A stretch of 64,000 nt of DNA from NCBI RefSeq assembly GCF_007750395.1, contig NZ_CP036281.1, positions 3,929,001 through 3,993,000 on the forward strand. Reading direction: 5' to 3'. Shown here one piece after another: positions 17,837 through 27,069 of the stretch; within the stretch, counting starts at the first letter, position 1, and the number at the start of each line of letters is the position of its first letter. The position numbers and the translations under genes were made by a program. Under the pieces are notes generated by a model that was not told the origin of the DNA, ran no database searches, and worked only from the letters and a program-made list of their open reading frames with translations. This DNA is from Polystyrenella longa. GTDB taxonomy: Bacteria > Planctomycetota > Planctomycetia > Planctomycetales > Planctomycetaceae.

Positions 17837-18394
17837 ACGAGAAATTGCTTCATTCTCCCAAGTTGCTGTTCCGACCAAATACGCTTGCATGGACACTCTT
17901 CCCGTCGATAGTGCCCTGTCGAGAATAGTACCCTGAGGAGTCCCCGTCCTGAAAACCTGACCCTCAATCCTGCCAACTGATCTCAAGTTGCTCACGGGCC
18001 AATTGAGGCGTTCAGCGGCAAGACAGCGAGAGACTCCGCAGAACTCCTGCCTGCTCCATCCGCCTCGCGTCAGTCTCCCTTCGCTCTGACGCACTCCGCA
18101 CTGGCCCGCTCATAACGAATTCGGCACGCTGGTTCACTTCTTCCTCATCCGTAGTTGGCAATCTAGAGCGCATTCCAGAAAACCGTAGCGTGTTCTGGCG
18201 GCGTAGCCTGCTGTATTTAAGGGTTTTTCGGGAACGATAGCCGCCACTCTTATCCTGGACAGGATCTAATTGGTTACAAAAGGCGAAAGCAGACTCAATG
18301 AGTAATCGTCCGATCTGGCGACGCCTCCGGCTTATTGTTTAAGCAAGTTATTCGATACACGGCTTGGTGCCAGCAAGATTCACAGCCACGAGAG
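17837..18394. other. Intergenic region with one MITE-like repeat copy
   Basis: 560 bp with no supported gene. It contains the first copy of the 106-bp repeat (18164-18269). The rest, 17840-18160, is C/T-rich with no long open frame and no structure I recognise. Confidence 0.6.
18164..18269 (+). repeat. 106-bp MITE-like dispersed repeat, copy 1
   Basis: Identical to the copy at 26480-26585 at 100 of 106 positions, same orientation. The ends form imperfect inverted repeats: TAGA...TCCAG...ATAA at the left and the complement of the same blocks at the right, and TA is present at each boundary. The centre carries a GGCGGC / GCCGCC stem about 50 bases apart. No coding capacity. It is consistent with a non-autonomous element moved by an IS630/Tc1-mariner-type transposase (TA target); no such transposase is in the window. 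Confidence 0.85.
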
Positions 18395-24022: not shown

Positions 24023-26482
24023 TTGAATTCAACGACTGTTTTCAAATTGAGTGTATATGGATTTCTCGCTTACAGTGCGTTCATGCTTTGCGTCGCACAG
24101 AATTCGATTTTTCCGCAAGGGATTCTGCTGGTATTAGTTCCACTCGCTTATTATCTCAGCGAACGTCGGAGGATCTTGATCCTACCAACCTGGGCCGCGA
24201 ACACACTCGGTGTCATCGCCTTCCTGTTTGCCTCTTTAGAGTTTCAGGGAATTGTTGTTCCATTCGGTGGGTTGGGACAACAGTATTTTGAAGACTTTCA
24301 AATCCGGGCAGGCACAAATCTCATTGTTTACCTGAGCTGCATCGTTTTGTTTATGGAAAAACGAACGAGTTACTACTGGGGAATTCTCATCTTCGGAGTG
24401 CTTCTAGTGGCGCTAGGCTGCATATTTACGAAGTCGACAGAATACAGCCTGCTCCTCCTAGTCTTCATGATATCAGGATTATGGACACTCTTCAATTTCA
24501 TGATCTACGAAGCTCAATTGCAACATTACGAATTGAGTTTTTCCGGCCTACATGGACTGACCCACCCTTCAACGACCGTAAAACCGGAATTGCCTGCATC
24601 TCGTTTCCAACAACCGAGCACGATCAAAGGAACGATTAAATTCGAAGAGGGTTCCAGCTGGTTCACCAGAAGTCTACTGTTTGGTTTTTTAATGATGTGC
24701 ATTCTGACATTTTTTGTGGCAATCTTTTTTTACATTTTCATCCCACGCACCTGGATTGGAGACTTTGCCAAGAATTTAAATACCCCGCAGAATCAACGGC
24801 TCAAAACTGGCTTCAACGATAATGTCAAACTTGGCCGAATGGGATCACTGCTCTCCAGCTCAGAATTGGTAATGGAATTCGACCTGGAAGATGAAAATGG
24901 AAAAGAAGTCGATCTTTACGAATATATTGGCCAGTTGGGATACGATGTACCCTATTTTCGGGGGAATGTATTGACGCTTTATGAAAATGAAACCTGGAAA
25001 GTCGCACGTCCGGATATGCTACGAGCCGACTTTAGGGCTTGGAATCTGACTAAGTACGTCAAACAGAACATCCGAATGGTAAGTGCACCTACCGGTCATT
25101 TATTTGCAATATATCCTGCATCTCAATTCGATACGATGTTAGAAATCAACCGCGTTCCGAATTTTAACTTTGAGTCCAATCTCTGGAGCCTCGATCAAGG
25201 GTTTTCAGATGAATTCAATCTCGAAGTGACACTGTTTCCGGTAAAAGAAATTCGAGAGTTTTTACATACTGACTTCGAACGGCCTTTCATTTGGCAGTTA
25301 AAGCCAAACATCAACGAACTTAAAGAGATAACCAGGCGAGAATCGCTTGCAGTCCCGCCGGGACTTGAAGAACTACAGAAAGTCGCTAGGGACATCAGCA
25401 TTAAAAGCCTGGAACGTCAGGGAATCGCCTCCCCCGCTGAAACATTACTATCCAATACTCACCCTGAAGTCAGACTTAAAGTCGTCGATGATCTTACGGA
25501 GTACCTTAAAAGTGAAAAGAATTTCACTTACTCCACGGAGTTGTCCATAACAGATCCAGCGGTTGATCCTGTTGTTGATTTCTTGATCAATACTAAACGG
25601 GGACATTGCGAATACTTTGCGTCAGCGTTGACATTGATGTGTCGTTCTGTAGGCATTCCAGCGAGACTCGTCACTGGTTTCAAAGGGGCTTCGAAGAACA
25701 ATTTCAACAATATGTACTCTGTCCAACAAAAAGACGCACATGCATGGGTCGAAGTCCATGTCCCCTCGGCTACAATGCAACGTTGGTACGTATTCGACCC
25801 GACACCTGGCGAAAGGGAGTTAAACCGAGACAGTTCCGATCGTTCAGGAACCACGTTTGCCGATATCAAAGATGCAATTTCTTCTTTCTGGCGAACTTAC
25901 GTCGTCAACTTTACGGCTCAGCAACAGTTCAACACCGTCATTAAACCAATCGCTGAAAAGGTGACGGAACTTTGGCAACTCCTGAAAGAACGTGGTATTT
26001 GGGAACTGATCAAAGAAGTTGCCAGTACACTATTGGACCCTTCCTACTGGTTCAGTCGATTCGGGCTGATGGTATTTGGGGTTATCACTATCGTGGTGAT
26101 TCTGGCAAGGCGGTATTTACGGCCAATACTGGAGCGAATACGACGACTTTGGAGTAAAGAAACTGAGAACGGTTTCCGTCGACGTCAAACCGTTTATTTT
26201 AATGAACGGTTCAAGCAGATTTGCAAGAAGCGGGGTCTGGTCAAATCAAATAACCAGACTGATCAGGAATTCGCCAAGCATGTTCAGGAATTCTGGAATG
26301 CGTACTTGGCCCCCCATGGACTGCAGAATTTCCCATCGCAGTTGACGAACTGGTATTACCAGATCCGCTTCGGCAATCGACAGCCTACGACGGCGGAACT
26401 GGAACCGCTGAACAGCATGCTGGAGCTTTTCGAGCAGGAGGTCAAAAAGATACCTCAACAATCCTTACGAGGGACAAGCTAG
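24023..26482 (+). CDS. TgpA-like membrane transglutaminase-fold protein (DUF3488/DUF4129 type)
   Basis: 819 residues. Five to six membrane helices occupy the first 170 residues, another lies at about 215-240, and a further one at about 680-700 before a cytoplasmic DUF4129-like tail. The external part holds a transglutaminase core with an intact triad: Cys in KRGHCEYFASAL (about 528), His in DAHAWVEVH (about 572) and Asp in YVFDPTPGE (about 592). The start is TTG at 24023; the first helix begins just after it. It is probably co-transcribed with the DUF58 gene. The stop codon (TAG, 26480-26482) is formed by the left end of the second repeat copy. Confidence 0.9.
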   Translation: MNSTTVFKLSVYGFLAYSAFMLCVAQNSIFPQGILLVLVPLAYYLSERRRILILPTWAANTLGVIAFLFASLEFQGIVVPFGGLGQQYFEDFQIRAGTNLIVYLSCIVLFMEKRTSYYWGILIFGVLLVALGCIFTKSTEYSLLLLVFMISGLWTLFNFMIYEAQLQHYELSFSGLHGLTHPSTTVKPELPASRFQQPSTIKGTIKFEEGSSWFTRSLLFGFLMMCILTFFVAIFFYIFIPRTWIGDFAKNLNTPQNQRLKTGFNDNVKLGRMGSLLSSSELVMEFDLEDENGKEVDLYEYIGQLGYDVPYFRGNVLTLYENETWKVARPDMLRADFRAWNLTKYVKQNIRMVSAPTGHLFAIYPASQFDTMLEINRVPNFNFESNLWSLDQGFSDEFNLEVTLFPVKEIREFLHTDFERPFIWQLKPNINELKEITRRESLAVPPGLEELQKVARDISIKSLERQGIASPAETLLSNTHPEVRLKVVDDLTEYLKSEKNFTYSTELSITDPAVDPVVDFLINTKRGHCEYFASALTLMCRSVGIPARLVTGFKGASKNNFNNMYSVQQKDAHAWVEVHVPSATMQRWYVFDPTPGERELNRDSSDRSGTTFADIKDAISSFWRTYVVNFTAQQQFNTVIKPIAEKVTELWQLLKERGIWELIKEVASTLLDPSYWFSRFGLMVFGVITIVVILARRYLRPILERIRRLWSKETENGFRRRQTVYFNERFKQICKKRGLVKSNNQTDQEFAKHVQEFWNAYLAPHGLQNFPSQLTNWYYQIRFGNRQPTTAELEPLNSMLELFEQEVKKIPQQSLRGTS

Positions 26483-26585
26483 AGTGCATTCCAGATAACC
26501 GTAGCGTGTTCTGGCGGCGTAGCCTGCTGTATTTAAGTGCTTTTCGGGACCGATAGCCGCCACACTTATCCTGGACAGGATCTAA
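26480..26585 (+). repeat. 106-bp MITE-like dispersed repeat, copy 2
   Basis: Second copy of the element at 18164-18269, with six substitutions. Its first TA lies inside the stop codon of the transglutaminase gene (TAG). Removing the element and one TA restores AGC-TAA at the same codon, so the insertion exchanged a TAA stop for TAG and left the protein unchanged. That is what a TA-duplicating insertion predicts. The element then separates this gene from the convergent lipoprotein gene. Confidence 0.85.
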
Positions 26586-26619
26586 CTTGCCATATCCACC
26601 GTTCATGGACAGCAGGGAT

Positions 26620-27069
26620 TTATTCGGCTGGTTCTTCAAGAATCATGATTTCTCCCGCTTCAGCACTATAGGCATAAAACTGTCCGGCGGGTAACACGGT
26701 GAAGGAACTGCCACTTTCCTTCATAATTCCTATAAATTCTTCGTAGTTAGGAAAGCGTTCGTGCTCTGCCTCGAAAGTTCGAATGACTTGCAGCATTCCA
26801 AACCGACTCGCCTCAGAACCTTTAACCAACATGGTGGATGAAAGAGTCTTGATGTAATTATCAGTATTCACCTTTTCGGAAACACGAACTAGATTTGGGT
26901 TATCTTTGATCAGTTGATCGTAATCGCCAACCTCCTGAGTTCGCTTACCGATGATTCCCCGGTTGTCTTTTTTCACCCCCGCTCCTTCATCCGCGGAATC
27001 TGAACTTGAACAGCCAGTTACGGTTAAACTCAGTAGCAGGAAAACCACGAGCGACCTGCGAATCATCAT
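26620..27069 (-). CDS. Small predicted lipoprotein, function unknown
   Basis: 149 residues. The N-terminus has a positive start, the hydrophobic run LVVFLLLSLTV and lipobox VTGC, giving a mature lipoprotein from Cys20 with a Ser/Asp/Gly-rich linker. The rest is soluble and weakly conserved in appearance (FPNYEEFIGIMKESG, GQFYAYSAEAGEIMIL), ending with an acidic tail. It is 126 bp downstream of surE on the same strand and could be co-transcribed. I do not recognise its domain. Confidence 0.75.
   Translation of the reverse strand: MMIRRSLVVFLLLSLTVTGCSSSDSADEGAGVKKDNRGIIGKRTQEVGDYDQLIKDNPNLVRVSEKVNTDNYIKTLSSTMLVKGSEASRFGMLQVIRTFEAEHERFPNYEEFIGIMKESGSSFTVLPAGQFYAYSAEAGEIMILEEPAE

Follow-up and report, generated by a model that had tools for sequence, protein, structure and literature searches.

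The window, the whole 64-kb stretch of DNA analysed here, covers C1:3929001-3993000 of a complete 6.13-Mb planctomycete genome (G000). Within it, a transglutaminase gene runs into one copy of a short repeat, here called MITE-A, and is followed by a convergent gene on the opposite strand. The start of the transglutaminase gene is possibly 24047 rather than 24023. A second copy of the repeat is present elsewhere in the window, and the two are 94% identical across 111 nt. No Rfam match was found anywhere in the 64-kb window. The features are as follows.

18164..18268, + strand: other copy of MITE-A in the window, intergenic, with target CTAA
24023..26482, + strand: transglutaminase gene with TgpA_N and Transglut_core domains; its stop is supplied by the element's left end
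26480..26584, + strand: MITE-A copy in the transglutaminase stop codon, 105 bp from TA to TA
26480..26481, + strand: left TA, the target dinucleotide, which with G26482 forms the TAG stop in current use
26490..26498, + strand: left subterminal sequence TCCAGATAA, an imperfect inverted repeat of TTATCCTGGA (26566-26575)
26513..26518, + strand: inner inverted repeat, left arm GGCGGC
26556..26561, + strand: inner inverted repeat, right arm GCCGCC
26568..26581, + strand: right-end palindrome ATCCTGGACAGGAT, preserved across the genus via compensatory changes
26583..26584, + strand: right TA, which with A26585 forms the original TAA stop of the empty site
26620..27069, - strand: convergent lipoprotein-like gene beyond the element; G001 has it in synteny, 38% identical, and lacks the element

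The insertion in the transglutaminase stop codon

Positions 26478-26586 of the window read GC-TAGAGTGC...GGATCTA-AC, and the repeat itself, TAGAGTGCATTCC...CAGGATCTA, is non-coding. A sequence-only reading of this locus had proposed that an element begins within the transglutaminase stop codon, and this is confirmed, as the open reading frame from 24023 terminates at the TAG at 26480-26482. Of the 106-bp element then proposed, the start stands, but the end does not: the element is one base shorter, and A26585 belongs to the flank as the last base of the pre-insertion TAA. Joining the flanks with a single TA does yield AGC-TAA-CTTGCC, as had been claimed.

The congener G001 (MAG HKST-UBA56) encodes a transglutaminase that is 58% identical over 456 aa and ends at the homologous residue without the element (KKIPFNPTPGQA with a TAG in G001 versus KKIPQQSLRGTS in the window). 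The genes downstream occur in the same order, with the lipoprotein-like gene followed by surE (82%). The suggestion that the insertion was tolerated through an unchanged protein therefore holds, and the longer protein reading through this stop that would have spoken against it does not occur in G001. The comparison with a relative supplies an empty site by position, although the predicted AGC-TAA-CTTGCC is not itself seen, because the non-coding flank in G001 is too diverged for base-by-base alignment. G001 is thus best described as a positional empty site for the window insertion, not base-alignable beyond the stop.

The MITE-A family

Copies were counted with a 29-nt right-end pattern allowing up to three mismatches, for which the reversed control gave none. 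There are 52 such right ends in G000, 24 in the congener G002 and 14 in G001, and G000 has about eight older, more diverged copies beyond the 52. The exact right-end pattern, compared with 84,980 bacterial and archaeal genomes (a scan in which records of the window's own genome were possibly excluded), matched only in the MAGs NAT128 and HKST-UBA56. Among about 100 genomes of the family, a similar right end was found outside the genus only in G069, on otherwise unrelated repeats, and there was no match to MITE-A in phage and plasmid records. By these comparisons, MITE-A appears as a MITE-like family restricted to the genus.

Each species has its own version of the element. The left end is TAGAGCG in G000 (TATAGCG in older copies), TATAGCAAA in G002 and TATTACGTG in G001, while conservation is highest at the right end, TTATCYTGGACARGATCTA. 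In present-day G000 copies, both ends start with TAG when read inwards (left TAGAGCG, right TAGATCC). Old copies resembling those of G001 are still present in G000, and the family therefore appears to have been inherited within the genus.

Like bacterial MITEs, MITE-A is short, non-coding and present in many dispersed copies with sharp, shared ends. It is also polymorphic for insertion: 16 of 18 orthologous stop-codon loci are empty in relatives, where the protein stops at the corresponding position or close to it, and nested insertions occur. These observations bear on whether the repeat might instead be an immobile, conserved 3' regulatory or terminator sequence duplicated along with genes. 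Many copies do lie near 3' ends, but the flanking genes are unrelated, orientation varies, relatives lack the copy at those same 16 loci, and copies occur inside one another (L012) or form nests with a second repeat (L024, L138), so that an immobile sequence is scarcely credible.

The inverted repeats consist of TAGA/TCTA at the termini, TCCAGATAA versus TTATCCTGGA, and GGCGGC/GCCGCC, with unequal spacing, and a consensus fold retains only the inner stem and the right-end palindrome. Pairing in that palindrome is kept by a C-G to T-A change in 8 of 17 sequences and by a T-A to C-G change in one.

Two fragments from other genera resemble parts of the element. In G069, unrelated repeats at three loci (L173, L177 and L181) end in GTTTTGATCCTGGACAGGATCTAA, or nearly so, which is the terminal palindrome of MITE-A. 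In G036, a 37-bp stretch (L034:1501-1537) is 86% like the MITE-A left end and has no recognisable right end. Both matches are too short to be placed as relatives of the family.

Target site and borders

Among 70 clean copies from G000 and G002, the left flank is C in 63 and the right flank is A or G in 67. The target logo is D-C-TA-R, in which position -2 avoids C, and no longer motif is present. The target of MITE-A may accordingly be written as CTA(A/G) as judged from these flanks. TTAA is barely used, though its non-coding frequency is about that of CTAA. The preferences for a left C and a right A or G are asymmetric (p ~2e-8), and the left end therefore prefers the C side. Most copies have TA at both borders, where a duplicated TA and an element-borne TA look identical in sequence.

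Several other border models were considered. A 4-bp duplication of the IS5-like YTAR type is excluded by the left CTAG/CTAT versus the right CTAR. A 6-bp NCTAGN duplication, as in IS481, is absent, and across the 52 copies no 4-6 bp duplication occurs as a rule. Assigning the left C to the element was also rejected, because the old stop would then need to be in the right flank, and it is not.

Three nested arrangements are exact to the base. In L012 the right TA of an older A-like end has received a MITE-A copy, in L024 MITE-A has entered the right TA of a second repeat, B, and in L138 it is repeat B that interrupts a MITE-A copy, at an internal TA. The boundaries and TA target first read from the copy at 26480-26584 are upheld by these junctions, together with the fixed ends of the 52 G000 copies and their conserved flanks.

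Repeat B is a TA-bounded family of 92 bp (TAGTAGTAGTTTCAAAACCC...GGGTTTTGAAATGGCCTCTA; L138:1558-1649 and L302-L331), with 21 matches in G000 and at least 40 in G001. Several of its copies supply TAG stops at their right end, and one is the copy nested in MITE-A at L138.

Stop codons supplied by the element

Empty sites were rebuilt by script, and genes were called with a simple home-made hexamer caller. By this caller, 19 of the 52 G000 copies lie in a stop codon, 11 through the left end and eight through the right; L030, an S-adenosylhomocysteinase ending in PYKPEYYRY followed by TAG, was added by hand to give 20 of 52. In these copies, about 40% of the total, the stop of the gene is the element's own terminal TAG, at either end. 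G002 has 11 of 24 copies in stop codons, all of them at the right end, and its left end reads TAT. In G001 the figure is two of 13, one of which (L099) has its stop one codon later. The affected genes include some that, judged from sequence, are probably tsaD-, gatB- and NAD(P)H-hydrate-dehydratase-like.

With a target of TA plus A or G, any gene whose frame runs up to that TA must already have terminated at this point when the element arrived. A pre-existing stop is thus required, and truncation cannot give the stop-codon pattern. Orthologues spanning the C-terminus are available for 18 of the 20 G000 genes, and 16 of these genes end within one residue of the same place; the exceptions are L026 (four residues) and L147 (six to eight). 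At one gene (L134 in one genome, L101/L242 and L241 in the others), MITE-A lies at or beside the stop in all three species, which could mean a hot spot or an old insertion that they have in common. At the 3' end of the gatB-like orthologues, the insertion at L250 in G001 is a few bases from that at L024 in G000, at a later position, and the two are apparently independent.

The best explanation is very probably that MITE-A is a non-autonomous, TA-targeting MITE whose TAG ends make insertion into stop codons silent. The element would insert at the TA of CTA(A/G) and leave TA at both borders, a step established as far as sequence can establish it. Entering a TAA or TAG stop, whichever of its ends meets the gene, it would rebuild TAG at the same codon and leave the protein unchanged. 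This outcome is observed for the window gene, whose protein is unchanged because the element's own end spells the stop, and, through orthologues, at most of the 18 loci. Being silent at the protein level, such insertions would presumably survive.

The left end provides a natural control. Copies whose left end reads TAG account for 12 stop insertions at the left (two with decayed ends) and six at the right, while copies with other left ends account for one and 14, respectively (p ~0.001, or 0.013 with the decayed copies counted against). With a left end that is not a stop codon, it is very rare for a gene to terminate at that end.

Null sites were taken from 424 kb of G000 and 317 kb of G002. 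Stops make up 43 of 540 non-coding CTAA/TTAG and CTAG sites in G000 (8%) and 23 of 179 in G002. With two G000 copies inside genes left out, 20 of 50 are in stops, against an expectation of roughly 8% under equal availability of every non-coding CTAR site (p ~5e-10); with intergenic sites halved, p is ~1e-5. Stops are still over-represented when the comparison is limited to CTAR sites lying 1-60 bp downstream of a stop, by 4.3-fold in G000 (p ~1e-4) and 3.1-fold in G002 (p 0.07), an excess not predicted by simple silence.

The excess is an argument for active targeting of stop codons or of the 3' ends of genes, for example via the translation- or transcription-termination machinery, or for positive selection of the element at these sites because it stabilises mRNA 3' ends. 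Stop-codon copies also show no greater age than other copies (p 0.17 and 0.77), an argument against mere retention. However, the logo is confined to D-C-TA-R, both orientations occur in G000, so that there is no fixed RNA signal after the stop, and the unrelated repeat B is also found in stops in the same genomes, pointing to tolerance. The null, moreover, comes from a home-made gene caller and modest numbers. Stop-seeking or selection at 3' ends is thus unlikely. There is a similarly low probability for a scheme in which transposition is directed to stop codons and the left end changed from TAT to TAG in the G000 lineage, so that TAG stood at both ends and stops became safe in both orientations. 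If that were true, MITE-A would be a selfish element adapted to a harmless niche in the genetic code.

It may also be asked whether survival bias alone is responsible. Inexact deletion of a stop-codon copy would remove the stop, and such copies would persist while intergenic ones were lost, which could in principle enrich stops over time without targeting. But the least diverged G000 copies, with three differences or fewer, are at least as enriched (8 of 13 in stops), and the age difference is absent; this explanation is even more doubtful than stop-seeking. Tolerance of silent insertions by the MITE accounts for the stop pattern qualitatively, though not for a residual excess.

Mobilisation

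Given the TA target, the small size and the imperfect inverted repeats, the mobilising enzyme may tentatively be taken as a Tc1/mariner-IS630-type transposase, either supplied in trans or since lost, a reading that falls just short of an even chance. Insertion at TA is as in IS630/Tc1-mariner elements, but no IS630 transposase gene that has ends in common with MITE-A was found. In the complete genome G000, there is no IS630 (DDE_3) gene above the cut-off. The DDE_3 matches there were rejected as partners, being mainly rve-type integrase IS with ends CCCGTACCGTAAA, and an IS630 copy in G002 has inverted repeats unlike those of MITE-A. Sought through either end, a longer autonomous copy was not found, only older copies and solo ends at about chance level. 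Also against this enzyme, the right-end palindrome and the one-sided C preference are atypical for a symmetric TA-target transposase. It may be that the compensated palindrome is read by an HUH enzyme or a dimeric protein.

The rve-type integrase IS form a cluster of copies of ~1.5 kb at about 5.48-5.69 Mb of C1 in G000 (L121, L124-L126, L128, L130-L132), with ends CCCGTACCGTAAAAAAACT / TTTACGATACG and mostly 75-86% alike.

A REPIN-like element mobilised by RAYT, a Y1 tyrosine transposase, is a different model. RAYT-like genes are present in all three genomes, the right end of MITE-A is a TAG plus a palindrome with compensatory changes, and the terminal TAG of GTAG REPs is often the stop of a flanking ORF (PMC3733652). 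However, GTAG REPs and REPINs have a GTAG (GTRG) head and 20-40 bp hairpins, whereas MITE-A is 105 bp with a CTAG/CTAT or YTAG head. The RAYT genes are bracketed by other repeats, none of them by MITE-A; the single MITE-A copy near a RAYT (L194) is within a repeat cluster, and solo ends in G000 are near chance level. The RAYT model is therefore largely refuted and must be considered very unlikely.

RAYT-like genes occur at L194 and L196 in G000, L193 and L190 in G002, and L191 in G001. Those at L191, L193, L194 and L196 are associated with inverted repeats having a GTGCCAC/GTGGCAC...GCAGTG-like core, with several copies in L194, and L190 with a different repeat.

Comparison with known repeats

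RUP of Streptococcus pneumoniae is a 107-bp repeat, linked to IS630-Spn1 and proposed to be a MITE of the IS630 kind (PMC2229807). Compared by description, it resembles MITE-A in size, TA at both ends, inverted repeats (imperfect in MITE-A) and lack of coding capacity, and has about 100 copies (PMC2229807), although for MITE-A an IS630 partner was not found. RUP is described as most frequent at 50-150 bp from genes (PMC3049150), while MITE-A reaches its highest density within the stop codon. Correia/NEMIS elements of Neisseria share a ~107-bp form, TA termini and possibly target duplication with MITE-A, but they are described as fused into ORFs and as carrying open frames (PMC2229807), whereas MITE-A ends ORFs with TAG. 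TnRErm46/ISRe46, of the IS481 family, likewise has a CTAG target whose TAG supplies stops, leaving some target genes uninterrupted (PMC6794481). It is, however, a 6.9-kb autonomous transposon with 6-bp NCTAGN duplications, while in MITE-A at most TA is duplicated and IS481-type direct repeats are not found. For pneumococcal BOX, 36 genes have their stop inside the repeat, with no strong evidence of truncation (PMC3049150). BOX differs in being modular and in that the stop is said to be encoded by the repeat; it is not known to restore a stop at a specific target.

The idea that repeats supply TAG stops is thus already known from GTAG REPs, BOX and TnRErm46. As far as the open-licence literature searched goes, the novelty lies in this element itself, in its having TAG at both ends, in how often copies occupy stop codons and in the species-to-species control at the left end. 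MITE-A is a clear example from nature of a mobile element that, through the sequence of its ends, makes insertions at gene ends silent, and the sister species with a non-stop left end has no stop-codon copies on the left side. It is also a countable test of whether small bacterial transposons come to lie at stops by tolerance or by targeting. For annotators, it is a warning that in such genomes the stop codons of some genes are part of a repeat.
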